DNA of 41,679 bases from a virus. This document shows positions 1,587 through 39,993 of this stretch, piece after piece. The notes under the pieces were generated by a model that worked only from the letters and a program-made list of their open reading frames with translations, had not been told where the DNA came from and did no database searches. The translations under genes were made by a program, and so were the position numbers. The DNA lies in the IMG/VR virus record IMGVR_UViG_3300013118_000638, positions 1-41,679 of that record; one strand, 5' to 3'. Within the stretch, counting starts at the first letter, position 1, and every line of letters starts with the position of its first letter.

Positions 1587-4076
1587 ATGTCAAAATATAC
1601 AATTGATTTGAAGGACCTTCGTCTCACAGACATTGAGAAGGTCGGCGGAAAGAGTGCCTCTCTGGGAGAGATGATTCAATCACTGTCTGAGATCGGTGTC
1701 AATATCCCGGGCGGCTTTGCAGTTACAGTCCAGGCATACAGAGACTTCCTCGCAGCTAATGGCCTCGAAGACAAAATCAGAAAGCTAATCGAATCATGCG
1801 ACGTTGATGACCTTGTCCAGCTCAGGCAAATTGGCACTCAGATCAGAGAGATGATTCGTCAGTGTGAGTTCCCAGATGATATGCGCGCCGAGATCAAGAT
1901 TGCCTATGAGGAGCTCTCCCAGAGATATGGCCAGGATATCACAGATGTTGCTGTGAGATCTTCCGCCACTGCAGAGGATTTACCGGATGCCTCTTTCGCC
2001 GGCCAGCAGGAGACGTTTCTGAATGTTCGAGGCTGGAAGGGCGTTCTAACTGCAACCCGCAATTGCTTCGCGTCCCTCTTTACTGACAGAGCGATATCAT
2101 ACCGAACCACATTCAATTACGATCACTTCGATGTAGGACTCTCAGCTTGCGTTCAAAAGATGGTCAGGTCAGATCTCGGAGCTTCAGGCGTCGCATTCTC
2201 GCTGGACACGGAGTCTGGATTCAAGGATGTAGTTCTCATTAACGGTTCGTGGGGTTTGGGTGAGATGGTGGTGCAAGGAGCTGTATCACCGGATGAGATG
2301 CTGGTATTCAAGCCTACACTAAAGAGCGGATACACGCCGATCATTGAAAAGCGGATGGGTGACAAAGACAAGAAGATGATCTACTCTGACAACCCAGGTG
2401 AGAGAACAAAAATCATCTCTGTCTCACCTGACCAGCAAGGATCATTTTGTATCGATGACGAGATGGTTCTCAAGCTAGCCGATTGGGTATGCAAGATTGA
2501 AACATACTACACAAACCTCCGCGGAACGTGGTGTCCGATGGATGTTGAGTGGGCTGTTGATGGTTTGACGCACGAGCTATATATCGTGCAAGCCCGCCCG
2601 GAGACAATCCACTCTCAACGCCAGCAAGACGTGATAACTGAATATCATGTCAATGACCCGCTCCGCGCCAAACGCTTAATTGCAAAAGGTGTTGCAGTTG
2701 GTGATGGAATATCAACGGGTAAAGTTCGAATCATGTATTCACTCGACGGCCGTGACGGCGGATCTGACGAGACAGATTTTGAACCCGGCGATGTGCTAGT
2801 GACAGAGATGACTGATCCAGACTGGGAGCCTATAATGAAAAAGGCAGCAGCCATCATCACCAACCGAGGGGGCAGAACCTGCCATGCAGCAATTGTCGCC
2901 CGTGAGATGGGAATTCCAGCAGTGGTCGGTGCCAAAGGTTTAGACAAAAGGCTTTCCACAAAATGCCTAAATGAAGGACAGATCGTTACCGTATCATGCG
3001 CTGAGGGAGACGTTGCCAATATTTACGACGGGATTGTGCTATATGAATCGTTAACCACAAAGCTGAGTGACCTGGCTGAGACCCATACACCGATCATGAT
3101 GAACGTAGGATCACCCGACCAAGCATTTAAATTTGCTGCCATACCCAATGCGGGAGTCGGCTTGGCGCGCGAAGAGTTCATCATCAACAACTACATTCAG
3201 GCACACCCGATGGCGCTGCTTAAGCATCGAGAAGTAGGCGACCCGGAGCTCACAGCAAAGATTGAAGATTTGACGAAGGGTTATGAAAGTGAAGAAGAGT
3301 TCTTTATCAAGCGTCTATCGTATGGTATTGCAAAGATCGCGTCAGCATTCTATCCCAACGAAGTAATCGTCAGGTTTAGCGACTTTAAATCCAACGAATA
3401 CCGAGGTCTGCTAGGCGGAGAACACTTCGAGCCTACGGAAGAGAATCCAATGCTCGGTTGGAGAGGCGCATCACGCTATTACTCACCCGAATACCGAGAA
3501 GCGTTTGGGATGGAGTGCAAAGCCATTCGTCGAGTTCGCGAAAAGATGGGCCTGAAGAATGTGACAGTGATGATTCCATTCTGCCGAACAGTCGGCGAAC
3601 TCCACAAAGTATATGATGTCATGAGTGCTTACGGACTTGAACGAGGCCGAGAGGACCTAAAAGTATTTTTAATGGCTGAGCTACCATCCAACGTAATCCT
3701 TGCTGGTGAATTTGCAAAACACATTGATGGATTCTCAATCGGAAGCAACGATCTAACGCAGCTTACTCTCGGCTTAGACAGAGACAGTGAGCTGGTCCAG
3801 CATCTCTACGATGAGAGAGATGACGCTGTAAAGAAGATGCTAGCAATGGTAATCTGTCAGGCTAAAGCCTGCGGTGTCAAAGTCGGAATATGCGGCCAGG
3901 GTCCATCTGATTTTCCAGATCTGGCAGCGTTCCTTGTTCTGCAGGGAATTGATTCAATTTCTGTGACTCCGGATAGTATGTTAAAGACCCGAAGGGCTAT
4001 ATATGATATAGAGCATAGAAATCTAATCCAAGGACGGAATAGAGAGTATAATAATCCCAACGAAGGAAATAAATGA
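1587..4076 (+). CDS. ppsA: Phosphoenolpyruvate synthase (pyruvate, water dikinase)
   Basis: An 829-residue, apparently full-length PEP synthase; E. coli PpsA has 792. The order is an N-terminal ATP-grasp/pyruvate-binding domain (VGGKSASLGEM near residue 19; a QQETFLNV segment near 140), the swivelling phosphohistidine domain with GGRTCHAAIVAREMG (catalytic His at residue 433) and the TIM-barrel PEP-binding domain with GICGQGPSD (catalytic Cys at 769) and GIDSISVTPDS. All catalytic residues are present. It converts pyruvate, ATP and water to PEP, AMP and phosphate, the gluconeogenic direction. Its stop overlaps the ftsH start by 4 bases. Finding it among phage-type genes suggests rerouting of host central carbon; that is inference. 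Confidence 0.95.
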   Translation: MSKYTIDLKDLRLTDIEKVGGKSASLGEMIQSLSEIGVNIPGGFAVTVQAYRDFLAANGLEDKIRKLIESCDVDDLVQLRQIGTQIREMIRQCEFPDDMRAEIKIAYEELSQRYGQDITDVAVRSSATAEDLPDASFAGQQETFLNVRGWKGVLTATRNCFASLFTDRAISYRTTFNYDHFDVGLSACVQKMVRSDLGASGVAFSLDTESGFKDVVLINGSWGLGEMVVQGAVSPDEMLVFKPTLKSGYTPIIEKRMGDKDKKMIYSDNPGERTKIISVSPDQQGSFCIDDEMVLKLADWVCKIETYYTNLRGTWCPMDVEWAVDGLTHELYIVQARPETIHSQRQQDVITEYHVNDPLRAKRLIAKGVAVGDGISTGKVRIMYSLDGRDGGSDETDFEPGDVLVTEMTDPDWEPIMKKAAAIITNRGGRTCHAAIVAREMGIPAVVGAKGLDKRLSTKCLNEGQIVTVSCAEGDVANIYDGIVLYESLTTKLSDLAETHTPIMMNVGSPDQAFKFAAIPNAGVGLAREEFIINNYIQAHPMALLKHREVGDPELTAKIEDLTKGYESEEEFFIKRLSYGIAKIASAFYPNEVIVRFSDFKSNEYRGLLGGEHFEPTEENPMLGWRGASRYYSPEYREAFGMECKAIRRVREKMGLKNVTVMIPFCRTVGELHKVYDVMSAYGLERGREDLKVFLMAELPSNVILAGEFAKHIDGFSIGSNDLTQLTLGLDRDSELVQHLYDERDDAVKKMLAMVICQAKACGVKVGICGQGPSDFPDLAAFLVLQGIDSISVTPDSMLKTRRAIYDIEHRNLIQGRNREYNNPNEGNK

Positions 4077-5905
4077 GAAACTCTATAAGAAACGCCAATC
4101 CAAGAACGTTGGGACTTTGGTTTATGGCCCTCGCGATAATTTTCTTTTTATTGTCATCGCCAGGACACAGAGATAGCAACGTAAGAAAAGTCAGCTATAC
4201 TGAGATGATTCAACTTATTCAGGAGCTGCCCGCAGGGAAAGATTCAAAATCAACGCTAACGATTAGCGGAGATAGATGGGAACTGATACAGGATGACGAC
4301 CCCGGAATCACAACCTCAGTAGGCCCAGTTACAGAGGGCTTCCTTGATCTGGCACAAAAGCATCATCCGGGCCTAAAGCTGGTAATATCACCCAGAGAAA
4401 CACCGTCGGCATTTTGGTCATTCCTGGGCAGCTTCCTTCCATTCGTTCTTATTTTTGGTATCATATTTTTCTTCGTCAAAAATATGACTAAAACACAAGG
4501 CAGGGCAATGGACTTCAATAAAAGCAAGCATAAGATCATATTGCCAGGTGAAAATAAAAAGAAATTTTCTGACGTGGCTGGGTGTGATGAGGCAAAGGCA
4601 GACCTTGAAGAGGTTGTTGACTATCTCAAAGATCCAGCTAAGTATTATAAGCTCGGCGCCAAACTACCAAAGGGGATTCTATTAGCAGGCCCGCCCGGAA
4701 CAGGCAAGACACTTTTAGCTCAGGCCCTCGCCGGCGAAGCCGGCGTTCACTTTCTAACCATCTCAGGTTCAGACTTCGTTGAAATGTTTGTTGGTGTTGG
4801 TGCATCTCGAGTCAGAGATTTGTTTGAAGCAGCAGAGATGCTCGCGCCTGCCATTATATTCATTGATGAGATCGACGCCGTCGGTCGCCAGCGCGGTGCA
4901 GGCATGGGCGGAGGCAACGATGAACGTGAACAAACACTCAACCAGCTCCTCGTCGGAATGGATGGCTTTGAAGAAAACAGCGGGATTATGGTTCTTGCTG
5001 CATCCAACCGACCCGATGTCCTCGATCCGGCACTTCTCAGACCCGGGCGCTTCGACCGCCGCGTTACAGTTGGTCGCCCAGACATTAAAGGCCGCGCAGA
5101 GATCCTGAGGATTCATCTCAGAGACATTCCGCTGGATCCAGGTGTAGATATTCAAGTCATAGCACGATCAACACCAGGGATGACAGGAGCAGATCTAGCT
5201 AATCTGTGCAATGAAGCAGCATTGAATGCGGCGAAGGACAATAGAGAGAAGGTAATTGATACTGACTTCGAAGTCGCCAGAGACAAAGTTACAATGGGAT
5301 CCCCTCGAAAATCTATGATCATGTCTGATGAGCAAAAGCTAGCCACAGCAAGACACGAGGCAGGACATGCTGTCGTGGCATTCCATACAAAGACCTCAGA
5401 TCCACTGCACAAGGTTACCATTATTCCTCACGGCGGAGCACTCGGTTTGACAATGCAACTACCCGAAGAGGACAAGCATTGCTCAACACATGAAGAGTAT
5501 GAAGACAGAATCAAGGTATTGCTCGGCGGTTATCTAGCTGAGAAGATGTATTACGGCGACAAGGGCTCAACAACAGGTGTCAAGAATGACCTCCAGCGTG
5601 TTAAGGCAATTGCTGCAAGCATGGTCAAAGAGTTCGGTATGTCGCCATTAGGCCCGATCTACAACGCCACCGGAAATGACAGCCCATTCTTAGGTCGAGA
5701 AATGGGGACAGCTAGAAAATCAGATCTGAGCGAAGTGGTTTCTGCCCGAATCGACAAGGAGATCCGGAACGTGATTGAATCATCTCTCGAAGCAGCACAA
5801 GATATTTTGACAAAGAACAAAGCAGTAATGGACAAGATGGTTGATGATCTGATGGAGCATGAAACGCTCAATGCAGACCAGCTTAATAAAGTTCTGTTAA
5901 CATAA
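4073..5905 (+). CDS. ftsH: ATP-dependent zinc metalloprotease FtsH
   Basis: A 610-residue membrane AAA protease. Membrane segments lie near residues 13-29 and 118-140 with a periplasmic stretch between. The AAA module carries Walker A GPPGTGKT at 206-213, Walker B FIDEIDA, and second-region-of-homology RPGRFDRRV. The zinc site HEAGH is at 428-432, and the third ligand is probably the Asp in KNDLQRVK near 504. FtsH assembles as a hexamer and degrades membrane proteins and short-lived regulators. All catalytic residues are intact. It is about 35 residues shorter than the E. coli protein, mainly at the variable C-terminus. It overlaps ppsA by 4 bases and is followed 13 bases later by a cupin. 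A phage copy could reshape host envelope quality control or destroy a host regulator; the target is unknown. Confidence 0.95.
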
Positions 5906-6291: not shown

Positions 6292-6379
6292 GGAAAGTTG
6301 GCCGAGTGGTCGAAGGCGACGCATTAGAAATGCGTTGAGGTGCAAGTCTCCGTGGGTTCGAATCCCACACTTTCCTCCA
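6292..6379 (+). tRNA. tRNA-Ser, anticodon AGA
   Basis: A complete class II tRNA. The acceptor stem GGAAAGT (6292-6298) pairs perfectly with ACTTTCC (6369-6375); the discriminator is T and CCA is encoded at 6377-6379. The D stem is GCC/GGC. The anticodon stem ACGCA/TGCGT encloses the loop TTAGAAA, so positions 34-36 read AGA and decode UCU. A long variable arm and a GTGGG/CCCAC T stem with TTCGAAT loop support serine identity. A34 in a serine tRNA is unusual for bacteria, and the discriminator is T rather than the usual G. Phage tRNAs usually supplement codons the phage uses more than its host does. There is no partner tRNA elsewhere in the window. Confidence 0.93.
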
Positions 6380-6399
6380 ATTTCTCTGAAGGAGATCGA

Positions 6400-7167
6400 A
6401 TGAAGAAGCTCGTTTGTTATATGCTAATGTTCACAGGTTGCAATAGCGGCAATGATTCTGTCACGCAAGAGGTAAAGTCTGAATACTCATATGAAGATGA
6501 AATGGTTAGGGTCTACGCTGACGACGTCATTCCAGCCATCAAGCTAAATGAGACTGAACAAAATACACGGGATGCTTCTGTAAAAGTCTTCACGCCCGGC
6601 ATGGGAAGAGGATCAGGCTGCTATGTAACGTATAAGGGAACAAATCTTGTCATTACTGCCGCCCATGTAATCAATGACTCTAAGACTAATTGGTTTTGGG
6701 TTGTCAACAATAAGCAAAAGGTCAAAGCTCACGCTGCTTATTTTAATGGTGCTGAGGACATTGCACTGCTAGCTGTTCCTGATGCAAAGATCGCTGATCC
6801 TGTCCCGCTTGCAGTAGAGAATACATATCCCGATATCGGTGAGGAAATAATCTACTCAGGCTGGCCAGGACACCATTCTCTCTTGACGATCCGCGGCGAA
6901 GTTGTAGGATATCAAAAAATCAGCAGGGGCAAAGAGAAGCTTGTCGTTCATACATACGGTTGGCCCGGGGCCTCGGGATCATGTTTCTTTAATGCAGCTG
7001 GGGCAGTTGTTGGTATCCTCGTAGCACTCCCGGTCGAAAGAGGATATGTTCCGCAGCTTCTTGAGAGCATGGTTTACGCAACCCCCATCAAACATCTGGA
7101 TCTTGACAAGCTCGACAAGGCTCTTTGCACCTTGCCTAAAAATGTTCGACCTGAGATGTGTAAGTAG
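6400..7167 (+). CDS. Trypsin-like serine protease lipoprotein
   Basis: A 255-residue exported protease. The N-terminus is a short hydrophobic signal ending in a lipobox-like FTGC (Cys14), so it is probably lipid-anchored. The chymotrypsin-fold triad is visible as TAAHV (His89), AEDIAL (Asp120) and GASGS (Ser192). Length fits one protease domain without PDZ, unlike HtrA/DegP. The start at 6400 has a strong ribosome site (aaggag); a longer in-frame start inside the tRNA at 6340 is rejected. It is followed by a secreted cysteine-rich protein and a pilin-like protein, so the three may act at the envelope. A second tagged protease of the same fold is at 29126. The substrate is unknown. Confidence 0.88.
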   Translation: MKKLVCYMLMFTGCNSGNDSVTQEVKSEYSYEDEMVRVYADDVIPAIKLNETEQNTRDASVKVFTPGMGRGSGCYVTYKGTNLVITAAHVINDSKTNWFWVVNNKQKVKAHAAYFNGAEDIALLAVPDAKIADPVPLAVENTYPDIGEEIIYSGWPGHHSLLTIRGEVVGYQKISRGKEKLVVHTYGWPGASGSCFFNAAGAVVGILVALPVERGYVPQLLESMVYATPIKHLDLDKLDKALCTLPKNVRPEMCK

Positions 7168-10967: not shown

Positions 10968-10969
10968 TG

Positions 10970-11494: not shown

Positions 11495-11661
11495 TGAAAA
11501 ACACATTCAAACCGGGAGATCTTGTACAAATGATGTTTGGGCCAGAACATGAACCCGGGATTATAGTTGAAAAATCAAACACCAGCTTATTTCGTGTGCT
11601 TATTAGTGGTGAAATCTATCGATCGTCTGAATCAATGCTGACGCATGCCCAAGATGAATAG
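11494..11661 (+). CDS. GDLV-family small protein (array member 13)
   Basis: A 55-residue protein. KPGDLVQM (6-13), PGIIVEKS (21-28), FRVLISGEIYR (33-43) and a helical tail. The hairpin nearly repeats that of the gene at 9103 (FRVLINGEIIK), so these two minimal copies may be recent relatives. A ggag ribosome site lies in the previous gene. It overlaps the next gene by about 17 bases. Confidence 0.82.
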   Translation: MKNTFKPGDLVQMMFGPEHEPGIIVEKSNTSLFRVLISGEIYRSSESMLTHAQDE

Positions 11662-11914
11662 GTTCACCCCCGGCGACCTAATCCAGGTATTCGACAATTC
11701 AGCCCTTGCAAACCGACAACCATATCCAGTTATCCATCCATATCACAAACAAAAGGGTATCGTAATCAAAACACTTGTAATCCAGGATCCCGAAAGGACA
11801 TCATCATTCGACGCATTGATGAGCGCGATCTCGGGTGAATGGCTTGTAGAATGCTTGATTGATGGGGAAATTACCTCTATTGAACCAGAATATCTTAGGC
11901 TGGCAGATCAATGA
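11645..11914 (+). CDS. GDLV-family small protein (array member 14)
   Basis: 89 residues from ATG 11645; a second in-frame ATG at 11654 would give 86 and overlaps the preceding stop more typically. TPGDLIQV (8-15), GIVIKT (38-43), WLVECLIDGEIT (66-77) and a terminal strand EYLRL. A long loop between strands 2 and 3 is predicted to be partly helical. Overlaps the next gene by 4 bases (ATGA). Confidence 0.8.
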   Translation: MPKMNRFTPGDLIQVFDNSALANRQPYPVIHPYHKQKGIVIKTLVIQDPERTSSFDALMSAISGEWLVECLIDGEITSIEPEYLRLADQ

Positions 11915-12126
11915 AACCAGGGGATCTTGTCTCATCAGCCATTAATCTGCTATATAGAGGAATAATCTTATCACGTGAAGAGGATGACTATAAACAAAAT
12001 GATTCATACGATCAAACACACTCAGTTAAAAAGTTCGAAACGTTCCAGGTTTTCTGGTTTGCAGATCGAAAAATATTTAAACACTCACCGCAACAACTGA
12101 TTCCTGTAAAAGATGTCGCCGAGTAG
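11911..12126 (+). CDS. GDLV-family small protein (array member 15)
   Basis: 71 residues. KPGDLVSS (2-9), RGIILSRE (16-23), FQVFWFADRKIF (45-56) and the terminal strand QLIPV. The turn ADRK replaces the usual DG-K. Its 3' end contains the TGTAAA element of a candidate promoter for the next gene. Confidence 0.8.
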   Translation: MKPGDLVSSAINLLYRGIILSREEDDYKQNDSYDQTHSVKKFETFQVFWFADRKIFKHSPQQLIPVKDVAE

Positions 12127-12133
12127 ATATAAT
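12105..12133 (+). promoter_or_regulatory. Candidate promoter, TGTAAA-17-TATAAT
   Basis: TGTAAA at 12105-12110 lies inside the end of the previous gene and TATAAT at 12128-12133, 17 bases apart. It matches the recurring layout but is very close to the ATG at 12139. If it is active, the later ATG at 12157 is the more likely start. Confidence 0.45.
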
Positions 12134-12138
12134 AAAAA

Positions 12139-12390
12139 ATGGTGGGTTTCGTAACAATGTTCAAAGACGAGGAAGACAAACTGCAACCTGGTGATATGGT
12201 CAAGGTAGGATTCTTTCCGCCTCACAAAAAAGTCACTGGGCTATACATCACGACCGGCGTAATCGTCGAGAGGTTCAAGACAAAGGGTGATCGACTCGGG
12301 AAAGACAGGTTTAAAGTTCTCGTTGAAGGAAAGCTATTCAAGACACCTCACATCAAACTAATCGAGAAGATAGAAGATGAAGAGCTTTAA
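12139..12390 (+). CDS. GDLV-family small protein (array member 16)
   Basis: 83 residues from ATG 12139, or 77 from the in-frame ATG at 12157, which fits better if the TATAAT at 12128 is a promoter. QPGDMVKV (16-23), TGVIVERF (40-47), FKVLVEGKLF (60-69) and a terminal IKLIEKI strand. It overlaps the next gene by 14 bases. Confidence 0.82.
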   Translation: MVGFVTMFKDEEDKLQPGDMVKVGFFPPHKKVTGLYITTGVIVERFKTKGDRLGKDRFKVLVEGKLFKTPHIKLIEKIEDEEL

Positions 12391-12574
12391 AAAAGGTGAT
12401 CTGGTTCGGTCAATCATGTCACACTACTTCTCAACTGTCACGATTGAGGCTGGAGACATAGGGTTTGTTACAAAAATAAACGTAGAGCCAGGAATAACGA
12501 CTGCGATCTGCCTAATCAACGGTGTCAATGATACTGAGTTCTATTTTGAAGAGTTGGAGTTGGCAAATGGTTAA
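12377..12574 (+). CDS. GDLV-family small protein (array member 17)
   Basis: 65 residues. KKGDLVRS (5-12), IGFVTKI (28-34), a TAICLINGV strand (42-50) and LELANG at the end. A gaga-type ribosome site lies in the previous gene. It overlaps the next gene by 8 bases. Confidence 0.83.
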   Translation: MKSFKKGDLVRSIMSHYFSTVTIEAGDIGFVTKINVEPGITTAICLINGVNDTEFYFEELELANG

Positions 12575-12842
12575 AGGATCTTTCGTCAAAATAATGGATC
12601 AAAACGGATCTACTATCGATAGCAAAATCTATATCGAAGAAGTGATCCCATACGAGATGCTAAAGAAAGAACCCGATAACGAACACATAAAAGATCGAGT
12701 TGTGTCTTGTCGTATGAAGATGACAACTTATGATACTGAGGGAAAGCACTTCAATCACAGGCATCACGCAGTTCTTGCGGAAGGTCAAATAAAATACTAT
12801 AATACGAGTTACTTCACATTGATGCCTGCGGAGGAATCATGA
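12567..12842 (+). CDS. GDLV-family small protein, divergent (array member 18)
   Basis: 91 residues. VKGSFVKI (2-9) replaces G-D with G-S; strands later in the chain read VSCRMKM and HAVLAEGQIKYY. A His-rich stretch (HFNHRHHAV) sits in the loop before strand 4. The start at 12567 puts the motif at residue 2; the longer frame from 12522 is read through the previous gene. Overlaps the next gene by 4 bases. Confidence 0.75.
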   Translation: MVKGSFVKIMDQNGSTIDSKIYIEEVIPYEMLKKEPDNEHIKDRVVSCRMKMTTYDTEGKHFNHRHHAVLAEGQIKYYNTSYFTLMPAEES

Positions 12843-13048
12843 ACAGAGGTGATCTCGTAAGATGCTACGTTCACCCTGATAAGTTCATCCACAAAAGCAA
12901 GATCAAAGATATCGTTGGTGTCTTGATTAGTCATAAAAGGTTTAAGTCGAAGATCACCAAAAACTGGGATAATGAGTTTCAAGTTTTGTCACAAGGTAAG
13001 ATCCGACGAGTAACTACTGAGCTATATAAGATTGAGAAAATAGAATGA
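12839..13048 (+). CDS. GDLV-family small protein (array member 19)
   Basis: 69 residues. NRGDLVRC (2-9), VGVLISHKRF (26-35), FQVLSQGKIRRV (47-58) and the terminal strand LYKIEKIE. It is notably basic (many Lys and Arg), unlike most siblings, which would suit nucleic-acid binding. It has a ggagg ribosome site (12830-12834), with ATGA overlaps at both ends. Confidence 0.83.
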   Translation: MNRGDLVRCYVHPDKFIHKSKIKDIVGVLISHKRFKSKITKNWDNEFQVLSQGKIRRVTTELYKIEKIE

Positions 13049-13275
13049 ACAACTACTTCCGTGGTGATATTATAAAGATAGTAGAGCTCTATCAGGACAG
13101 AGAGACGCTGTATTGGAATCCGATCAGAGATACAGTAGGCTTGTTGTTGGAGGAAATCGACGATGATCTGATGCAGGTGTTGGTTGCTGGCAGAAAAGAG
13201 ACACATGATATCGGGCGAGGGCCCTACACGAGATACAAAGTGGAAGTGATAAGCAAAGGAAACATCAATGAATAA
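13045..13275 (+). CDS. GDLV-family small protein (array member 20)
   Basis: 76 residues. FRGDIIKI (5-12), VGLLLEEIDDD (31-41) and MQVLVAGRKE (43-52), then YKVEVIS as last strand. It closes the uninterrupted run of family members that began at 8780. Its end overlaps a non-family 55-residue gene by 8 bases. Confidence 0.82.
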   Translation: MNNYFRGDIIKIVELYQDRETLYWNPIRDTVGLLLEEIDDDLMQVLVAGRKETHDIGRGPYTRYKVEVISKGNINE

Positions 13276-13435
13276 CGAAGATAGAGAGACAGCATACTTG
13301 CACCAGGTCAGTGATATCCTGAATGAACTCCGAGATGTGCTAGCAGTAACACATGAGTATCACGGAGATCTGAGGTCCTTGCGCAAGCTGATGAATGAGT
13401 TTGATGATTGTAACTATGGTTCAAACCTTAGCTAG
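13268..13435 (+). CDS. Small helical protein, unknown
   Basis: A 55-residue acidic protein starting ATG at 13268 inside the end of the previous gene. The pattern of Leu and Val at 3-4 residue spacing (VSDILNELRDVLAV) predicts a single amphipathic helix or coiled coil. No family is recognised. It overlaps the GIY-YIG gene, so both are coupled to the array upstream. Confidence 0.62.
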   Translation: MNNEDRETAYLHQVSDILNELRDVLAVTHEYHGDLRSLRKLMNEFDDCNYGSNLS

Positions 13436-13673
13436 CTGGTACGTGTATCTGGTGAAATGTGGCGATGGTTCTCTTTACTGCGGTATCACGACAAACATTG
13501 AGCGACGATTAAAGGAACACAACTCCGGCTCAAAGGGTGCCAAATATACACGATCTCGCCGCCCAGTCAGCTTAGTTCACGTCGAGCCATCAGAAAACCG
13601 ATCGACTGCATCACGCCGGGAGGCACAAATCAAAAAGTTGACACGCAAGCAGAAAGAAGAGCTGATTAAATGA
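13416..13673 (+). CDS. GIY-YIG nuclease domain protein (YhbQ/UPF0213 type)
   Basis: 85 residues from ATG 13416 (an in-frame ATG at 13395 would add seven). A compact single GIY-YIG domain: WYVYLVKC with the paired GIT (residues 8-24), the catalytic Arg in ERRLKEH, and the Glu in SRREAQIKKL. It is close in length and layout to E. coli YhbQ and the SLX1 nuclease domain. Members cut branched or damaged DNA; homing enzymes share the fold but carry DNA-binding tails that are missing here. Neither start has a good ribosome site. Its stop overlaps the next ATG. Confidence 0.85.
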   Translation: MVQTLASWYVYLVKCGDGSLYCGITTNIERRLKEHNSGSKGAKYTRSRRPVSLVHVEPSENRSTASRREAQIKKLTRKQKEELIK

Positions 13674-14374
13674 CACGCAAATATAAGACTGAGCAGGTTT
13701 ATTACAGTGATTGGAATGATAAACTCGCGCCAGGGCATGAAGATTACTGGAACAAGATTAGCATCATCGCTGAGTGGATCGGATATGCGCTGGAAGCATC
13801 AATCTCAGGCTATAGTCCGATGTGGAATCATCTTGCAACCATCACAGTTCAGCAGACCAAAGAAAAGTTCGGCCAGGCAAGAGTATACACTAACCTTGCT
13901 ACCCACGAACATGTTGAGCAGCAGTGGAAAGAAGACCTCACCGATGCCAAGGAAAAGAACAATAGATATCATCGATGGGTGTCCGGCGATCTTGATGAGG
14001 AGAACCACAAGGAAATCACGCCGCACATTCTCAGCTCATTTAAATATAATACCTACCCACTCGATGAACCTACACTTGAAGAGCATGAACAACAATGTCG
14101 TGAATATGATTCTGCGCATTATCGACACGTATATCAGCAGGCATTTACACTCTGGCCTGAATATGAATACGCAATCTGGTCCGGCGCTGATCACCCCAAC
14201 TACTTGTTCAATGATATCGAGGAGCTCGAAGAATACTATGCTAAGCAAGTCGATGATATAAATGAAAGTAGCTACCTAACTGACGATGACAAAGTTGTAG
14301 CAACTACCCGATACGAAGAAGAAAAGGCATATGCAATGACTGTCTGCAGGTTCGGAGATCAAAAGGATGTTTAA
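13670..14374 (+). CDS. Phage-type protein of unknown function (KEKFG motif)
   Basis: A 234-residue acidic, aromatic-rich protein. Residues 61-73 (QQTKEKFGQARVY) match a motif, Q-x-K-E-K-F-G-x-x-R-x-Y, that I recall from common short phage proteins of unknown role, preceded by the usual G-Y/W-x-P-x-W segment. The rest is predicted helical, with many Glu, Tyr and Trp. No catalytic motif is visible. It is coupled to the GIY-YIG gene and overlaps the next small gene by 8 bases. Confidence 0.75.
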   Translation: MTRKYKTEQVYYSDWNDKLAPGHEDYWNKISIIAEWIGYALEASISGYSPMWNHLATITVQQTKEKFGQARVYTNLATHEHVEQQWKEDLTDAKEKNNRYHRWVSGDLDEENHKEITPHILSSFKYNTYPLDEPTLEEHEQQCREYDSAHYRHVYQQAFTLWPEYEYAIWSGADHPNYLFNDIEELEEYYAKQVDDINESSYLTDDDKVVATTRYEEEKAYAMTVCRFGDQKDV

Positions 14375-24370: not shown

Positions 24371-24577
24371 ATGAAGAGTGATGATGTCACAAAGATACAA
24401 GAAGTACATGATAAAAGATTAAGTAGATTTGCAAAGATCAAAGGGGAGCTTACGCTGCTTATGATCTTGTGTCGCAAGTTAATCACATTTAAAATGCCGT
24501 GGCAATACTATTTTCTCGGTGCAATGCTATGGGCTGACGGAATGTTGGCAGGCTGGTTATGCTCAAACCCTTTTTAA
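24371..24577 (+). CDS. Small membrane protein, unknown
   Basis: 68 residues. A charged, helical N-terminal half is followed by hydrophobic stretches LTLLMILCRKLITF (28-41) and YYFLGAMLWADGMLAGWLC (46-64), giving one or two membrane helices. It has a ggagg ribosome site with a TATACT box (24348-24353) upstream. It overlaps the secreted-protein gene behind it by 19 bases, so the two are probably co-translated. Confidence 0.68.
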   Translation: MKSDDVTKIQEVHDKRLSRFAKIKGELTLLMILCRKLITFKMPWQYYFLGAMLWADGMLAGWLCSNPF

Positions 24578-24984
24578 TAACGGGGGTAGGTATTCTACTG
24601 GCTGCTTGTATTTTTGCAGCGTCTAGACAACAAACACACCAGTTCAAGGCTGTAATTACCGGACATGATAATACATGGGTCAATAATTACGCACATGCTA
24701 GAATCTCTATGATCCCGGAAAAGGGTTGGTTCATTAAGCCCGAAGCACCAGTAAAGATATCCATCAAACACACTCAGAATATTGAGCTTAGCCAGACAGA
24801 ACTTACGATCAAAGACGTGCGCTGGGGTAAAAAAGTAAAGTCAGCAAACTTTGACATACTAATCAAAGGTAAGAAGGTTGGCATAGCAGAGATTGATGCT
24901 GATCTCGTATTCTCTACATGCAATAAAAGTGTCTGTATAGAAAATACCGGGCGCCTAACGAAGACCATAATAGTAAAGCCATGA
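24559..24984 (+). CDS. Exported protein, probable lipoprotein, with C-x4-C pair
   Basis: 141 residues. The N-terminal hydrophobic segment (4-20) contains the lipobox-like LLAAC (Cys17). The mature part is predicted beta-sandwich: ARISMIPEKGWFIK, VKISIKHTQN, DILIKGKKVG, then VFSTCNKSVC with Cys121 and Cys126. This layout resembles a secreted family I associate with Myxococcota (beta domain ending in F-S-x-C-x4-C) and, more loosely, the periplasmic domain of DsbD. Both comparisons are from memory. It is followed, after a 4-base overlap, by a GDLV gene. Confidence 0.7.
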   Translation: MLKPFLITGVGILLAACIFAASRQQTHQFKAVITGHDNTWVNNYAHARISMIPEKGWFIKPEAPVKISIKHTQNIELSQTELTIKDVRWGKKVKSANFDILIKGKKVGIAEIDADLVFSTCNKSVCIENTGRLTKTIIVKP

Positions 24985-25205
24985 AATACAATCCCGGCGA
25001 CATGGTTATAATAAAAGAATGTTCAGACTATACAGCAAGTTCAAAAAGCTGGACGTGGAAAGATAAGTCTGGAATTGTTATTAACTGCTTAGATCCACTT
25101 GTAATGGCAATTGCTGATGCAGGAACTGGCGGATACGACTACCAGATCTTCCTCGCCGGAGAACTTGTTTATTTCCACGAGGATGAATTAATCAGGGTAG
25201 GATAG
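24981..25205 (+). CDS. GDLV-family small protein
   Basis: 74 residues. NPGDMVII (4-11), SGIVINCL (30-37), YDYQIFLAGELVYFH (51-65) and a terminal ELIRV. Only six bases separate it from dnaJ, so it is transcribed with the chaperone and site-2 protease genes. Confidence 0.82.
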   Translation: MKYNPGDMVIIKECSDYTASSKSWTWKDKSGIVINCLDPLVMAIADAGTGGYDYQIFLAGELVYFHEDELIRVG

Positions 25206-25211: not shown

Positions 25212-26228
25212 GTGAAGAACTATTACGATATCTTGGGTGTAAAGAAAGATGCTACTCAAGCACAAATCAAAAAGTCATATAGAAACCTGGCTAAGAGATA
25301 TCACCCAGACACTTCAAAAGAGACAAACGCAGAAGAGCTGTTCAAAGAAGTCGCTGAAGCATACACAGTCTTAGGCGATAAGGACAAAAGAAAATCATAC
25401 GATAATCCTGCACCAAAAGGGTTCCCGCCTCCAGGTCCAGGCTTCGGTGATTTCTTTAGCCAGTTTACGGGCGGGTTTGAAGATTTATTCACAAGTCGCC
25501 GAGGCTACAAGCAGAACCCAAAGCCTACAAATCTTCGCTATCGACTTAATATCGATTTCTTCGCAGCAGCGATAGGAAAAGTAATCGATCTAAAGGTTGA
25601 GCGTATGGTGCCATGCAAGACATGCGATGGGTCAGGAAGCACAGACAAGACTGTCAAGGCTGTATGCAAGAAGTGTCACGGGCAAGGTAACACTACTTTT
25701 TTGCAAGGCTTCTTCCAGATGACACGAACATGTGAGGAATGCAATGGTAAAGGCACAAATATAACGAATCCATGCAATTCATGTCTGGGCAAGGGCTTGA
25801 AAAACACACACGAGTCTATCAAGGTCAACATCCCAGCAGGAGTCGAAAATAACAACGTAATCAAAGTCAAGGGATACGGACATCAAAATGTAAAAGGCTC
25901 ACCTCCTGGCGATCTTTTTCTAGAAGTAAGAGTAGGTGAGCATGGTAACTTCAAGCGGGTGGGAAACGATATTCATACCAGCGTTGTTATTTCTATACCT
26001 GAATCAATATTGGGTTGCCGAAGAGAGATTGAAACGGTCGCCGGCCCGGCCAAGCGATTAGTAATTCCTGACTGCACCAAGCCCGGAGACACGATTCGTC
26101 TCAAAGGTGAAGGTGTCAACGGCGGCGATCACGTTGTCACAATAAGGGTAACATTTCCCAGAACCCTTAGCAAAGAATTAGAAGACGCTTACGAGCAAGT
26201 TTATGAAGTTACTCACCCGAAAGGATAA
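25212..26228 (+). CDS. dnaJ: DnaJ chaperone (type I Hsp40)
   Basis: 338 residues from GTG 25212. J domain with HPD at 31-33; a Gly/Phe-rich linker (about 65-95); the zinc region with four C-x-x-C-x-G-x-G repeats from Cys135 (CKTCDGSG, CKKCHGQG, CEECNGKG, CNSCLGKG) to about 195; then the C-terminal beta domains. It is slightly shorter than E. coli DnaJ (376) but complete in domains. DnaJ stimulates the ATPase of DnaK and delivers unfolded substrates; no DnaK or GrpE is in the window, so it would have to work with the host chaperone. It is followed eight bases later by the protease gene. Confidence 0.95.
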   Translation: MKNYYDILGVKKDATQAQIKKSYRNLAKRYHPDTSKETNAEELFKEVAEAYTVLGDKDKRKSYDNPAPKGFPPPGPGFGDFFSQFTGGFEDLFTSRRGYKQNPKPTNLRYRLNIDFFAAAIGKVIDLKVERMVPCKTCDGSGSTDKTVKAVCKKCHGQGNTTFLQGFFQMTRTCEECNGKGTNITNPCNSCLGKGLKNTHESIKVNIPAGVENNNVIKVKGYGHQNVKGSPPGDLFLEVRVGEHGNFKRVGNDIHTSVVISIPESILGCRREIETVAGPAKRLVIPDCTKPGDTIRLKGEGVNGGDHVVTIRVTFPRTLSKELEDAYEQVYEVTHPKG

Positions 26229-26236
26229 TTATTAAT

Positions 26237-27046
26237 ATGTTAACATTCGTCGGTATTATTACATTCGTCGTATTTGTTCATGAATTTGGACATTACCTTG
26301 CTGCAAAGTCAGTAGGGATCCCAGTCAAGACATTCTCCCTCGGCTTCGGCCCCAAACTCCTCAGCTTCAATGCACGAGGAACTGAGTGGAGATTATCGCT
26401 TATACCTCTCGGCGGATACGTTCGCCTGGAAGGTGACGATGATTATGAGAACCTTGCAGAGGATCCTAATTCATTCTGGGGATGTAAACCTTGGAAGCGG
26501 ATTCTAATTGCAGTGGCGGGTCCCGTGGTAAACCTAGCACTACCTCTGGCACTATTCTTTGGCTATTACTATGGTCAAAAGGTTGAAGTTGAGCATCAAA
26601 CCCCGGCCGGAGTCATGGTAAAAGTTCACGAGGTAGATGCAAAGGTTGCAGCTCAAGCGTCCTATAGGATGACGAAAGACATGTATGCATCAATCGGTCG
26701 CGCAGTTAGTCACCTCAAGCAAAGCGGGGTCAAGAAAGAAGATCTCGGCGGGCCAGTAGCAATATATAATGAGACGCAAAGAGCTGTAAGGAAATCTGAG
26801 GAGACTAAAGACTGGGGATTCCTAATTCAGTGGATCGCTTTCTTCTCAATCAATCTGGGCGCCATGAATCTACTACCTATACCACTATTGGACGGCGGGC
26901 ATATTATGCTGTCTACCTATGAATGGATCACTCGCAAGCGCATATCAATGTCAGTCCGAGGCAAGCTTCATTTCGTAGGATTGTTATTTGTCTGTGCACT
27001 AATGGGCTTGGCAATCTATACCGATGTAGCTAGACTAATTGGCTAA
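26237..27046 (+). CDS. rseP: Site-2 metalloprotease (RseP/M50 family) without PDZ domains
   Basis: 269 residues. The zinc motif HEFGH is at 15-19 in the first membrane helix, and the second half of the site, LLDGGH with Asp219, is in a later helix; three to four membrane segments are apparent. E. coli RseP is about 450 residues with two periplasmic PDZ domains; here the central part (about 115-190) is too short and has no PDZ motif. The family cuts anti-sigma factors and signal peptides within the membrane. A PDZ-less enzyme may be less restrained or be guided by another protein. Its last 4 bases overlap the convergent gene on the other strand. Confidence 0.9.
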   Translation: MLTFVGIITFVVFVHEFGHYLAAKSVGIPVKTFSLGFGPKLLSFNARGTEWRLSLIPLGGYVRLEGDDDYENLAEDPNSFWGCKPWKRILIAVAGPVVNLALPLALFFGYYYGQKVEVEHQTPAGVMVKVHEVDAKVAAQASYRMTKDMYASIGRAVSHLKQSGVKKEDLGGPVAIYNETQRAVRKSEETKDWGFLIQWIAFFSINLGAMNLLPIPLLDGGHIMLSTYEWITRKRISMSVRGKLHFVGLLFVCALMGLAIYTDVARLIG

Positions 27047-28305
27047 CCACCGGTGCAGATATTGAGGAAGATCCTGCGCAAGGATTCAAATACCTCATTG
27101 GTTGTAGGATGATCACCAAGCGGGTGGAAGTTGTCTCGAACCCTAAAGATATCATCAAAGCTATCATAGAATCCATTGTCTGAATATACGTGCACGATGA
27201 ATGGTGAGTTTGCCACAATGGCTCCTACTTCTGCTTCTCTGTGTTGAGGGATTGCTAGATCATGTGTCTGGCCTTCTTCATCTGTCATGAGAATGATAAC
27301 CTTGTTTGACCCAGGCCGAAATGATAATCTAAAGGTGTTCTCAACGACATAGCGAATAGCATCCCACGATGGCTCATCACCGCCTCCACGACTTCTTGCC
27401 ATCTCTAGCGCAGTCTCAAGATGTTGCAAGAACTCATCTCGTGGCACAAAGTCTGTAATCAATCTCATCTTGCCATCGAGGTAGTTGGCACCCGGAATAG
27501 AATGAGAGCCAATCACAACGAGACTGAACTTAAAGTTGCGTGTAAGATCGTCTTCGAGCAGAGGAGCAATACCGTAAATGGTTCGTTCAATCTCATCGTC
27601 AAAGGATCCGGACACATCAATGATAAACGTAAGGTCAACACTGCCCGTGTCAAAGCCTTCGTCAATCTCACCATCACAATCATTGTCTTTGCCATCGCAA
27701 AGTTCCGGGGAAGGCAAAACCATGCCAACGCAATCAGACTCCATTGATCCGTCAACACAATATCTAATACCCGGCTTGCATTCACCTACAAGAATCGTCT
27801 CCTGCGGACCGTCATAGCAGACTTCCATCGTAGTGTTGGGAAGCTGATCATCAACTACACCGTTACAATCATTGTCAATGCTGTCGCAAACCTCAGGGCT
27901 CGGACCAGCATGACCATCGCACCTCAGGTATCCGTCATAGCACATCCAGACACCGGGACTGCATATGCCCACACCGTATTCGATATCATCTTGCATACCG
28001 CAAAGCTGTGCTTGCTCTGGATAGTCTTCGTCAATTGCGCCATCACAATCATTGTCAAGGCCGTCACAAACTTCTGCTGTCGGGTCGGTGACACCTTCAC
28101 ATTCTGACCACCCAGCGTATGAGCATGTCTGCTTGCCCCACGAGCATATTCCGGTTCTGACTTTTTTATCTTCCCACGTCCGGCCAGCACCGTCACAATA
28201 TAGAATACTGCCAGGTGTGCAGTCAAGCGCGATAAGCTTATCATCTTCACATGCCCCTGCAAGAAGCAATGCCACTGAGATGGAAACGACCGCAGCCCAT
28301 TTCAT
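27043..28305 (-). CDS. MopE-repeat and von Willebrand A domain lipoprotein
   Basis: 420 residues on the - strand. Signal peptide with lipobox LLAGAC (Cys19). Three repeats follow, each with G-x-C-x2-G...C...W-x-x-C-x-G and the metal-binding core C-D-x-x-D-N-D-C-[D/N]-G at about 80, 140 and 203. Residues 225-420 form a VWA domain with an intact MIDAS DVSGS at 230-234. MopE-type repeats with VWA domains are typical of secreted or surface proteins of Myxococcota and relatives. Adhesion or surface masking is plausible. It is transcribed opposite to its surroundings with two other envelope genes, which looks like an inserted cassette. Confidence 0.88.
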   Translation of the reverse strand: MKWAAVVSISVALLLAGACEDDKLIALDCTPGSILYCDGAGRTWEDKKVRTGICSWGKQTCSYAGWSECEGVTDPTAEVCDGLDNDCDGAIDEDYPEQAQLCGMQDDIEYGVGICSPGVWMCYDGYLRCDGHAGPSPEVCDSIDNDCNGVVDDQLPNTTMEVCYDGPQETILVGECKPGIRYCVDGSMESDCVGMVLPSPELCDGKDNDCDGEIDEGFDTGSVDLTFIIDVSGSFDDEIERTIYGIAPLLEDDLTRNFKFSLVVIGSHSIPGANYLDGKMRLITDFVPRDEFLQHLETALEMARSRGGGDEPSWDAIRYVVENTFRLSFRPGSNKVIILMTDEEGQTHDLAIPQHREAEVGAIVANSPFIVHVYSDNGFYDSFDDIFRVRDNFHPLGDHPTTNEVFESLRRIFLNICTGG

Positions 28306-28766
28306 TTTAGCTCCTCCATGCCTTTAATACATGATTCCCGGGAGCTATAAAAAGGAATTGTAAGGACTGAGCTCTTAAGCCATCTAAACCTAATGCTTTT
28401 GATCGGGGTGTCTTTGCCCCCTAGATTACCCATCATAACAACTGGCAAAGCTTTTTGCTGGGAAGTTAAATTATATGAGAGGACTGCAATGTCACCGTGA
28501 ACCTCAAGCACGCCAACAATAGATCCTCGAACCTCAGCTTTGGGTATGCCGATGAAGACACGTGAGAAGCTACCGCGTTCCCGAGTAACATCGTTCTCAA
28601 TGTACCCAACCCAGTCACAAAGACCGTTCTTACCCGGGATGTAGTATGTGGTCTCAGCGGCAAAGATGATCTCAGGCTTTTGGTCAGCTGAGATGATGTA
28701 AGTGAATCCGGCTATTATTAATAGACCGAGTAGAATTGAAAGTCTTGAAAACTTTTCCCGTATCAT
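28302..28766 (-). CDS. Membrane-anchored exported protein, unknown
   Basis: 154 residues on the - strand. A basic start and one hydrophobic helix (residues 9-26, LSILLGLLIIAGFTYIIS) anchor or export it. The remaining domain looks beta-rich (AAETTYYIPG, FSRVFIGIP, GSIVGVLEVHGDIAVLSYNL). Two cysteines may pair. I recognise no family. It overlaps both neighbours by 4 bases, so the three-gene cassette is a tight operon. Confidence 0.74.
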   Translation of the reverse strand: MIREKFSRLSILLGLLIIAGFTYIISADQKPEIIFAAETTYYIPGKNGLCDWVGYIENDVTRERGSFSRVFIGIPKAEVRGSIVGVLEVHGDIAVLSYNLTSQQKALPVVMMGNLGGKDTPIKSIRFRWLKSSVLTIPFYSSRESCIKGMEELK

Positions 28767-29047
28767 TCACCCTCGCTTGACTGACGCTCCACTGTAATAA
28801 AAGGCATCTTTATCAATTGTGCTTTGACTTCTGTGTTAGATGCATTGAAACCTGCAGCAGTAAAAAAGACTTGGTGCTTCATCTTTGGCTTCTGATTTGC
28901 TACTGCCCACTCACCTTTAACTACATGCCACATCTGTGGAATCTTAGTAATTTTTGGCTGGGTATCAATATCATTTGCCATTGCCGAGAGGCTGGTAGAA
29001 AGAACAACTGACCCCATCAAAAGGACTCTTGTTAAATTCGCAAACAT
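28763..29047 (-). CDS. Small secreted protein, unknown
   Basis: 94 residues on the - strand, first gene of the reverse cassette. Typical signal peptide with cleavage likely after SAMA (about residue 24). The mature part is basic and beta-like, with no cysteines. Strong aggag ribosome site at 29056-29060 (reverse). No family is recognised. Confidence 0.74.
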   Translation of the reverse strand: MFANLTRVLLMGSVVLSTSLSAMANDIDTQPKITKIPQMWHVVKGEWAVANQKPKMKHQVFFTAAGFNASNTEVKAQLIKMPFITVERQSSEGE

Positions 29048-29121: not shown

Positions 29122-29125
29122 CTTG

Positions 29126-29974
29126 ATGGATATAAAAAACCTTAAAAAGTATATAATTTTATGCATAATCATGATTGTGACTTCTTCATGTGCGTCATCT
29201 TATTGCGCTGTTAAAGATCTTTCAAGGACCGTAGAAGAAAAACTACCCAGACAATCTTTTGCATTGATACAAAATTCTTTAGACCTCAAGGCATGCAAAT
29301 CAATCGGAACTAATCTTCTCTCTGCATGTCAAACTGCAACGCTCGGATCCGCGTCCTCGGGTATGTTCGTAGGCAGAAGCAAGATCGACAGCACAGTAGG
29401 CTACGTTTTGACTGCAGGTCATAGCTGTGATGCGCAAGGCTTCAAGAAAAGATATGATAAGCCAGACGTCATCATCACAGTCGAGGCGCAAAGAATGAAT
29501 ATTGTTACGTATCATGGGCAATCATACCCGGCAACAATCGTCAAGATGAATCATCAATATGATATGTGCTTGCTACAGGTTCACGGCATCGGAGATCATC
29601 CAGCTCCAGTTCGCGTATCAGAGACCCCCCCGGTCCGCACACAAAAATCATACAACATCGCCGCTCCGCTCGGAATATTTAATACGAAGATGGTGTTCAT
29701 GTTCAAGGGCTTGTTCTCAGGATACAACAAGCAAGGTTACGCACTATATACACTGCCTACAAAGCCTGGATCAAGCGGATCATCAATCTTAAATGCTGAT
29801 GGTGAGATTATAGGCATGATCTTTGCAGGCTACCGCGGAATTGAAAGCATTGCTATTTCCTCTCCACATCATGCGCTTAAGGCGTTTATCGAGGACAATA
29901 TCAAGATGGGTGAGCTAGCATTGCACACCCGCCAAAAAATGCTTGAAGCAAGAATCCTTGATCTTATAAGATAA
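29126..29974 (+). CDS. Trypsin-like serine protease lipoprotein
   Basis: 282 residues from ATG 29126 (a TTG three bases earlier is less likely). Signal peptide with lipobox-like TSSC (Cys22). Triad in chymotrypsin-fold order: LTAGHS (His99), QYDMCL (Asp146), GSSGSS (Ser217). The C-terminal 30 residues are helical. It is the second exported serine protease of this fold in the window (see 6400), but the two share little beyond the motifs. No PDZ domain is present. It is the first + strand gene after the reverse cassette. Confidence 0.86.
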   Translation: MDIKNLKKYIILCIIMIVTSSCASSYCAVKDLSRTVEEKLPRQSFALIQNSLDLKACKSIGTNLLSACQTATLGSASSGMFVGRSKIDSTVGYVLTAGHSCDAQGFKKRYDKPDVIITVEAQRMNIVTYHGQSYPATIVKMNHQYDMCLLQVHGIGDHPAPVRVSETPPVRTQKSYNIAAPLGIFNTKMVFMFKGLFSGYNKQGYALYTLPTKPGSSGSSILNADGEIIGMIFAGYRGIESIAISSPHHALKAFIEDNIKMGELALHTRQKMLEARILDLIR

Positions 29975-39582: not shown

Positions 39583-39993
39583 ATGACTAATAAAGAAATC
39601 AAGGCTGAGCTAGAAAAGCAACTCGACACTGGCAAGATCCGCGTCATCATCGACACTGGGCATCGAGGTGTCAAAGTCCCAGTATCATTCATGAACGTGG
39701 GCCCAACGGTCTTCATCCTTGCGTGGGATTATCCGGGAATTGATATCGAGATAAACACACGTTCAGTCAAAGCAACACTCAGATTCAAAGGCACACCATT
39801 CAGGTGCACATTCCCGATCAAGTCAATCAAGAGCATCATCTCAATGAACTCGGCGCAAACTCCGCCCGAGCCTACAAAGAAGAAGCTGAAGGATCCCAGA
39901 GACCAGAGCGCAGGTCCAGGTCTCAAGATCATTGAAAAGGAATTCCCGATCACCGGCCTGGGTCACAAAGGCACATTAACCCAGCTGAAGTAA
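39583..39993 (+). CDS. SspB-like ClpXP adaptor (tentative)
   Basis: 136 residues. The region VIIDTGHRGVKVP (21-33), a strand FILAWDYPG, then VKATLRFKGTPFRCTFPIKSIKSI (in two parts, 62-85) follows the SspB fold: G-V-x-V-P early, [F/L]-x-F-x-G-x-x-x-x-x-x-[I/V]-P and a strand ending the domain. A charged, Pro-rich linker leads to a C-terminal end G-x-L-T-Q-L-K, comparable with the ClpX-binding tail of E. coli SspB (A-L-R-V-V-K). SspB delivers ssrA-tagged and other substrates to ClpXP. Similar short versions occur in Myxococcota, from memory. Confidence 0.66.
   Translation: MTNKEIKAELEKQLDTGKIRVIIDTGHRGVKVPVSFMNVGPTVFILAWDYPGIDIEINTRSVKATLRFKGTPFRCTFPIKSIKSIISMNSAQTPPEPTKKKLKDPRDQSAGPGLKIIEKEFPITGLGHKGTLTQLK

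Follow-up and report, generated by a model that had tools for sequence, protein, structure and literature searches.

A site-2 protease without PDZ domains in a T4-like phage lineage and its possible membrane-bound client

Introduction

Regulated intramembrane proteolysis (RIP) is known from cells, and the role of PDZ domains as a filter for its site-2 proteases (S2Ps) is debated. The question of what a phage might do with an S2P that lacks PDZ domains is raised by a 41,679-bp virus record of IMG/VR, which was analysed over its whole length and is called the window below; a first-pass annotation had reported in it a DnaJ gene followed by an S2P gene at 25212-27046. Passages of PMC10202637 describe the number of PDZ domains in group I S2Ps as variable and the PDZ pair of E. 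coli RseP as a size filter. If PDZ domains act as such a filter, an enzyme without them should be able to dispense with a first cut, unless another protein restrains it.

Results

An RseP-type core without PDZ domains

Both open reading frames were found where they had been placed, and Pfam domains confirm their assignment to DnaJ and S2P. The S2P gene and its elements are:

26237..27046, + strand: PDZ-less S2P, 269 aa, with an RseP-type core (Pfam, TIGR00054, AlphaFold, structure matches)
26279..26293, + strand: HEFGH zinc-binding motif, S2P residues 15-19; H15, E16 and H19 invariant in 58 aligned S2Ps
26570..26638, + strand: beta-hairpin, S2P residues 112-134, at the place of the RseP PDZ domain(s) (AlphaFold model, motif spacing)
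26867..26902, + strand: NLLPIPLLDGGH, S2P residues 211-222, which include D219 as third zinc ligand (conservation in 58 aligned S2Ps)

The zinc site had been described as present in both halves, and HEFGH and NLLPIPLLDGGH are indeed intact: far from being mutated, the ligands are invariant in the 58 aligned S2Ps, as are N211, P214, P216, D219, G220 and G221. In the AlphaFold model, HEFGH sits in helix 2-25, the first core transmembrane (TM) helix, and the LDG motif carries the third zinc ligand, which together characterize the S2P/M50 proteases. The protein matches Peptidase_M50 in Pfam (2e-57) and, in two stretches, the RseP model TIGR00054 of NCBIfam (196.9 bits, cut-off 147.55), while the E. 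coli-type model NF008046 (NCBIfam) stays far below its own cut-off (110.4 vs 477). It likewise aligns to A. aeolicus RseP in two stretches (chain residues 4-126 and 320-428), and the part skipped between residues 126 and 320 contains the PDZ region.

The AlphaFold model, built with 58 alignment rows, reached a mean pLDDT of 95.6 and a pTM of 0.90, with the hairpin strands at residues 115-122 and 125-132. Structure comparison (Foldseek, VIA-align) ranked RasP/RseP first, with Z-scores over 257-260 residues of 28.8 (9a6w), 27.5 (9j83), 27.4 (9j82) and 26.7 (7w6x), against 10.6 for M. jannaschii S2P and 8.9-10.1 for SpoIVFB, both over about 150 residues. Because RasP/RseP rank first and the place of the PDZ domains is taken by a hairpin, we regard the enzyme as an RseP-type core without PDZ domains. 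Its Z-scores and the TIGR00054 match correspond to the core fold of group I S2Ps, which also have at least one PDZ domain; since the Pfam scan, the model and the span of 203 aa between HExxH and LDGG reveal none, the enzyme is named RseP-like and not a strict group I member. The missing PDZ domain is thus one point on which the first-pass annotation was right. The CBS domain of group III is absent too, M50 being the sole Pfam match and the protein ending after its last TM helix. A PDZ domain supplied by another phage protein was also considered. PF17820 (PDZ_6) was found in none of 20 viral records searched throughout, so that no PDZ_6 domain is detectable in trans.

With the RseP/RasP proteins of A. 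aeolicus (9j82), E. coli (7w6x) and B. subtilis (RasP model 9a6w) the phage S2P shares HExxH, NxxPxPxLDG, the re-entrant beta hairpin and a four-helix core. In contrast to these, it has only 269 aa, whereas its cellular relatives have about 345-650 aa; the latter contain one PDZ domain when about 355 aa long, E. coli RseP contains two and the phage S2P none. A sequencing error does not explain the protein, because three other IMG/VR contigs encode it with 100% identity, and their DNA is 99.7-99.98% identical to the window over 13.6-20.8 kb. The conserved ligands and the modelled fold suggest that the S2P is probably a working intramembrane zinc protease of the RseP type.

Relatives of the S2P in phages and cells

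The first-pass annotation had proposed to search phage collections for M50 proteins without PDZ domains and to determine their phylogeny. Scans of IMG/VR yielded 33 viral S2P loci, many of which are near copies, so that counts over these loci overstate the number of independent cases. In 32 of them, the span from HExxH to LDGG measures 200-203 aa, and the remaining locus has a broken reading frame. For the cellular set, 84,980 species genomes were scanned; the best 80 of 567 relatives were kept, and the reading frame could be delimited by the motif rule in 72 of these. Among these 72, the span is 273-574 aa in all but one. The exception, a 282-aa protein from a Clostridia MAG with a span of 182 aa and likewise no room for a PDZ domain, groups with Bacillota and away from the phage clade. 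Judged from the trees, its PDZ loss is separate from that of the phages.

All phage S2Ps fall on one side of a branch with an SH-aLRT value of 99 (17 phage and 72 cellular rows), and with 100 in a repeat that left out the PDZ columns (15 phage and 43 cellular rows), both being quick trees calculated without bootstraps. By this placement the S2P of the window is a member of a phage-only clade, and the loss of the PDZ domains is therefore most simply placed once, before the phage lineages split. dN/dS is about 0.06-0.10 in four of six S2P pairs, the other two being saturated; in the measurable pairs, the S2P is under strong purifying selection. Phages have probably kept the PDZ-less enzyme for a long time.

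Phage context

Overlapping contigs extend the window phage by about 43.7 kb leftwards (G003) and about 36 kb rightwards (G002). A 235,681-bp relative, G005, has the same gene order, with identities of 75% for FtsH, 74% for S2P and 61% for DnaJ. The T4-type capsid gene Gp23 occurs in 11 of 20 S2P-bearing records, including G005, and in none of 14 control genomes; it is absent from the window phage's own fragments. As the window is a virus record and the syntenic G005 carries Gp23, a chromosomal or contaminant origin can be ruled out, in line with the phage context initially proposed, and we assign the window, as a fragment, to a T4-like phage lineage.

A membrane protein encoded upstream of the S2P

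In 27 of the 33 viral loci, the end of the gene directly upstream of the S2P overlaps the S2P start; this gene encodes a conserved phage membrane protein, called the partner below. It has 154-181 aa (less at contig ends) and comprises a single TM segment, a coiled coil predicted to lie in the periplasm and an end that varies; its topology, a cytoplasmic N-terminus and a single pass, is predicted from hydropathy and charge. The six loci without an adjoining partner are three copies of the window phage, G005, L208 and L209. A search of whole records nevertheless found the partner in 17 of 20. In the window phage it lies outside the window, about 22 kb beyond the S2P, on the overlapping contigs G001 and G002 (G002:30479-30853; L013:7456-7941), and the L209 record likewise contains it, separate from the S2P; thus, partner and S2P co-occur even where they are not neighbours. 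It was not recognized in G005 (235.7 kb) or in the L208 record (78 kb), both of which may be incomplete. Conversely, five records (G020, G021, G022, G031 and G033) contain the partner and no detected S2P; all are fragments that had been found through the partner, and the contig G031 stops within the partner gene.

Within the partner, similarity is highest in the TM segment, with a mean pairwise identity of 0.61 against 0.43-0.52 elsewhere and with invariant W, T and C (23 rows). The C-terminal conservation was not counted as evidence because the gene overlaps the S2P start; the terminus 'CLPFLE' was accordingly ruled out as a recognition tag, as the same bases encode the start of the S2P. The cytoplasmic part of the window phage's copy comprises only about 12 residues, so that this copy can hardly release a functional domain. 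Its structural model is of low confidence (mean pLDDT 66.2) and shows only the TM helix and a long helix. The partner matched no Pfam family above the cut-off and no lysis family of Pfam or PHROG significantly, and no sequence relation to SpoIVFA was seen. It might conceivably act as a membrane-tethered anti-sigma factor, but its copy in the window phage is almost devoid of a cytoplasmic part.

Exported serine proteases and a conserved gene block

Two exported serine proteases had been annotated in the window from 6400 and 29126. Both are confirmed as trypsin-like, with starts at 6340 and 29123, and the latter belongs to a block of genes next to the S2P, listed here together with the 6340 protease:

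27043..28305, - strand: lipoprotein-like protein, 420 aa, in which a VWA domain accompanies MopE metal-binding motifs (Pfam MopE 8.7e-15, VWA 1.6e-6); homologues at 40 of the 42 protease loci
28302..28766, - strand: exported protein of 154 aa with a single TM segment, hydrophobic around residue 9; homologues at all 42 protease loci
28763..29047, - strand: exported protein of only 94 aa; homologues at all 42 protease loci
29123..29974, + strand: exported trypsin-like serine protease without PDZ domain (Pfam Trypsin_2 4.1e-14); its homologue heads the protease-partner-S2P unit elsewhere
6340..7167, + strand: a further trypsin-like protease, exported but distinct in type (Trypsin_2 1.5e-14; 59% homologue in G005)

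An exported, lipoprotein-like trypsin homologue precedes the partner in 12 of the 33 S2P loci, giving one lineage a unit of protease, partner and S2P in a row; in L147, the protease stop overlaps the partner start by 4 nt. The 29123 protease is 32-33% identical to five proteases of such units and 54% identical to the G005 copy, and H100, D147 and the serine of GSSGS are invariant in seven aligned members (32-54% identity). As in a site-1/site-2 cascade, an exported and predicted periplasmic protease is therefore encoded together with the S2P. The window phage possesses all three parts in scattered positions, with the S2P at 26237, the protease 2.1 kb downstream of the S2P at 29123 and the partner on an overlapping contig. 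Of 33 records, 17 have a Trypsin_2 gene, among them all eight of at least 118 kb; an S2P was detected in 28 of the same 33. The link to the protease is weaker than the link to the partner, because in the partner-S2P records of clade B the protease is located elsewhere. The 6340 protease is not clearly part of the module. Proteases of the HtrA/DegS type combine a trypsin-like with a PDZ domain, whereas Pfam finds no domain but Trypsin_2 in either window protease; HtrA-family models of NCBIfam match them at 1e-5 to 1e-8.

The protease family occurs on 44 contigs, of which 42 loci were examined, the three copies of the window phage being counted as one. In all 42, genes for a single-TM protein of 155 aa and for a protein of 93 aa adjoin the protease. 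The VWA/MopE lipoprotein is found beside it in 40, and the other two loci begin before or within its expected place. A J-domain gene lies nearby in 25 loci and the S2P inside the block in 14, either between DnaJ and the lipoprotein (window and G005) or after protease and partner (12 others). Two things could not have been apparent to the first-pass annotation: the partner, encoded outside the window, and the conservation of the gene block around the 29123 protease.

M50 matches in isolated-phage records (24 and 22 records) were taken as probable bacterial DNA in phage records and were not used: identities all stay below 60%, the pieces, once joined, cover about 1.0-1.3 kb, a length expected of PDZ-bearing proteins, and the annotated ones are mostly named RseP, with one intramembrane protease RasP/YluC. 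The protease and the partner had no match in isolated-phage records.

The DnaJ cassette and other genes of the window

The S2P belongs to a cassette with DnaJ and three small genes, and two further genes had been annotated as parts of a proteolytic set:

24371..24577, + strand: small cassette protein, 68 aa (46% homologue at the same place in G005)
24559..24984, + strand: exported or membrane-anchored cassette protein, 141 aa, conserved Cys pair (44% homologue at the same place in G005)
24981..25205, + strand: cassette protein, 74 aa (51% homologue at the same place in G005)
25212..26228, + strand: DnaJ, 338 aa, with J, zinc and C-terminal domains (Pfam; phrog_14336 1.7e-89); ends 8 nt before the S2P
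4073..5905, + strand: FtsH, 610 aa, a possible downstream membrane protease (TIGR01241, 727.5 bits)
39583..39993, + strand: SspB-like protein, weak assignment (NCBIfam 8.6e-5, 22.6 bits, cut-off 202)

The J domain, the CXXCXGXG zinc domain and DnaJ_C all score above their Pfam cut-offs and HPD is present in the translation; the equivalog model TIGR02349 is slightly below its cut-off (329.2 vs 377.2). The DnaJ-S2P pair recurs in the 235.7-kb relative G005, and a homologue of the 141-aa protein lies directly downstream of the S2P in L208. A J domain is found at E <=0.001 in 11 of 13 records, 8 of them above the cut-off, but full DnaJ only in the lineage of the window, other large phages having weak J-domain proteins.

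The first-pass annotation had seen in the S2P, FtsH, the two serine proteases and an SspB-like adaptor an unusual gene set for taking over host proteolysis. Such genes do surround the S2P, and FtsH at 4073 is verified by Pfam; FtsH is, however, an irregular neighbour, present in only 4 of 13 related records. The adaptor at 39583 did not hold up well, with no Pfam match and an NCBIfam score far below the family cut-off. A sigma-70-like gene is located on overlapping contigs of the window phage; among 20 records, sigma-70 region 2 matched above the cut-off in two, both of them copies of this phage. The window also encodes a peptidoglycan-binding protein and an M23 protein.

Discussion

What would the phage enzyme cut? 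We consider it possible, with a probability of roughly 0.47, that these phages encode a RIP-like module in which the PDZ-less S2P acts first on the phage partner as its immediate client. During infection, the S2P would reside in the inner membrane of the host and the lipid-anchored, trypsin-like protease would cut in the periplasm; the single-pass partner, with its N-terminus in the cytoplasm and its coiled coil in the periplasm, would be the immediate client of the S2P. Most probably, the serine protease would first trim the periplasmic part of the partner, or no first cut would be needed, the PDZ filter being absent; the S2P would then cut or remove the TM helix of the partner. The purpose may be to alter the envelope of the infected cell or to time an event at the membrane, for instance lysis or exclusion. 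The parts cover the requirements of two-step membrane proteolysis: one protease for the periplasm, a client that crosses the membrane once and a second protease for the cut within the membrane. What the analysis establishes are the anatomy, conservation and gene order of these parts. Against this speak G005, which has the same DnaJ-S2P cassette, and L208, both without a recognizable partner in possibly incomplete records; the distance of about 22 kb and the cytoplasmic part of about 12 residues in the window phage; and the five records, all fragments, with a partner and no detected S2P.

The same parts also build the chief rival explanation, which we regard as less probable: the partner would be a regulator or docking subunit that replaces the PDZ domains, as SpoIVFA does for SpoIVFB, the serine protease would cut the partner to free the S2P, and the true substrate would be another membrane protein. 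The missing PDZ domain would fit a partner that is a substrate as well as one that is a regulator. A single-pass protein encoded directly upstream of a PDZ-less S2P, together with a secreted serine protease, agrees with a regulator, and the high similarity of the TM segment is expected for a helix packed on the enzyme. The partner of the window phage, with its very short cytoplasmic tail, is also easier to reconcile with a regulator than with a messenger that is released. The fold, however, is of the RseP type and not of the SpoIVFB type (Z 26.7-28.8 vs 8.9-10.1). It is unlikely that the S2P, together with FtsH and DnaJ in this lineage, serves a general clean-up of leftover signal peptides, failed membrane proteins and small host membrane toxins, with the partner as a mere neighbour. 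Passages of PMC10470546 report that E. coli RseP has small membrane proteins among its substrates, one being the toxin HokB, and that it suppresses HokB toxicity; a PDZ-less enzyme should readily accept small substrates, and FtsH, DnaJ and several exported proteins are encoded near the S2P in the window. Yet a general role would not require anything as specific as the frame overlap that joins partner and S2P in 27 of 33 loci, and neither FtsH (4 of 13 records) nor full DnaJ (the window's lineage only) accompanies the S2P regularly.

A wider version of the RIP-like module is improbable: the phages would hold a complete transmembrane relay of an envelope-anchored site-1 protease, a single-pass sensor and the PDZ-less S2P, joined in the window phage by the sigma-70-like factor and the SspB-like adaptor, which would read the state of the host envelope and time the phage programme (for instance, lysis or exclusion of rivals). 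Quite remote appears the takeover of the host envelope stress response that the first-pass annotation had suggested, in which the S2P would cleave a host anti-sigma factor, switch on the response and leave the fragment to be fed to ClpXP by the SspB-like adaptor. The RseP-type core, the loose resemblance of the proteases to DegS and the presence of an SspB-like gene in the window and of a sigma-70-like gene on overlapping contigs are in its favour, but no result links any host protein to the S2P, the SspB assignment is below its cut-off and the sigma-70 match is confined to two copies of one phage; the conserved client candidate next to the S2P is a phage protein and not a host-type anti-sigma factor. 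T-type holins and i-spanins have a topology with a short cytoplasmic tail, one TM segment and a periplasmic coiled coil. Least probable, in our estimation, is that the partner is such a holin- or spanin-like protein, the level or timed release of which is set by the S2P: the putatively similar topology and the peptidoglycan-binding and M23 proteins agree with this, but the Pfam and PHROG lysis families gave no significant match to the partner.

In the spoIVF operon, the single-pass protein SpoIVFA is encoded with SpoIVFB, and we know of no equivalent of BofA in the phage module. According to passages of PMC9042235 and PMC10202637, SpoIVFB of the B. subtilis sigma-K checkpoint is itself a PDZ-less S2P, and the secreted serine protease SpoIVB acts on SpoIVFA. 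The phage module resembles this system in its PDZ-less S2P, co-encoded single-pass membrane protein and secreted serine protease, but SpoIVFB belongs to group III with a CBS domain and fits the phage S2P much less well in structure. With the E. coli cascade DegS-RseA-RseP(-SspB/ClpXP) it shares a trypsin-like, predicted periplasmic protease, a membrane protein of predicted single-pass type II topology and an RseP-type S2P, and in the window phage also an SspB-like protein and a sigma-70-like gene. In contrast to the E. coli cascade, neither phage protease has a PDZ domain, the partner has no recognized anti-sigma domain, and the sigma gene is the phage's own and present in few relatives. Unlike cellular RseP/RasP, the S2P is phage-encoded and in most lineages overlaps the gene of a phage single-pass membrane protein.

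An S2P kept by phages and overlapping with a phage-made membrane protein would represent a natural minimal RIP system without a PDZ filter. This would open the questions of what restrains an RseP-type enzyme without PDZ domains and of whether phages rely on cuts within the membrane for the timing or protection of their infection. Beyond the S2P, the analysis shows in a T4-like group a conserved set of neighbouring genes dedicated to the host envelope. Among the literature matches listed, no paper dealt with a phage S2P or with phage-encoded intramembrane proteolysis, a weak negative result as preprints and most subscription papers were outside its scope. In the available text of PMC7824862, a survey of 224 jumbo phages, FtsH, trypsin and intramembrane proteases are unmentioned, and the sole 'M50' string stands in the reference list, apparently as part of a DOI. 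PHROGs contains no family for this S2P. M50 proteins have nonetheless been named in phages already: BFVD holds A0A6J5SMS1 (Peptidase M50, 184 aa) and A0A6J5RHB6 (SpoIVFB-like, 268 aa) from uncultured Caudovirales phages, both of which are remote from the window S2P, with TM-scores over the query of 0.46 and 0.40, respectively.

Envelope genes of the cassette and its surroundings

Opposite the exported trypsin-like serine protease lies a block of three genes:
27043-29047 (-): lipoprotein of VWA/MopE type; 155-aa protein with a single TM segment; exported protein of 93 aa

The order of these three genes is highly constant in this block and its homologues (42 loci). In several loci, tail-fibre-like genes adjoin the block. 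In the 235.7-kb relative, the DnaJ-S2P cassette encodes an exported thioredoxin-like protein with a CPAC motif (L025:13609-14253). Taken with the Cys pair found in the 141-aa cassette protein, this motif suggests thiol chemistry in the envelope.

Neighbouring metabolic, sigma-70-like and putative replication genes

A complete phosphoenolpyruvate synthase is encoded at window 1587-4076 (NCBIfam, 1144.5 bits), with 81% identity to the copy in the 235.7-kb relative, where it adjoins FtsH. On L013, a contig overlapping the window, a sigma-70-like gene (10270-11043; phrog_351, 2.2e-58) is located about 2.3 kb from the gene of the partner, the single-pass phage membrane protein. In the related phage locus L005, a large gene (10274-13690) follows shortly downstream of the partner/S2P region and is taken, by its sequence, for a putative DnaE-type DNA polymerase III alpha; the same applies to L147, L155 and L165, which carry it in the same place.

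Recurrent N-terminal sequences

An N-terminus like MKITKSxLRQIIxEEL is common to otherwise unlike proteins, in the window and in the related loci L025 and L028-L030. MKKLLTEWRKFLKE is also present in related phages. The shared N-terminus is reminiscent of a capsid-targeting sequence, which would be removed in the prohead. Many short window ORFs (about 55-105 aa) share a 'KPGDLV'-like start, a pattern that would fit the multiplication of a small beta-barrel family.

Window positions of proteins sharing an N-terminal sequence
MKITKSxLRQIIxEEL-like: 19198, 19555, 20181, 24114, 34499, 35426
'KPGDLV'-like: 9103-13048, 14367, 16540, 17920, 23244, 23881, 24981
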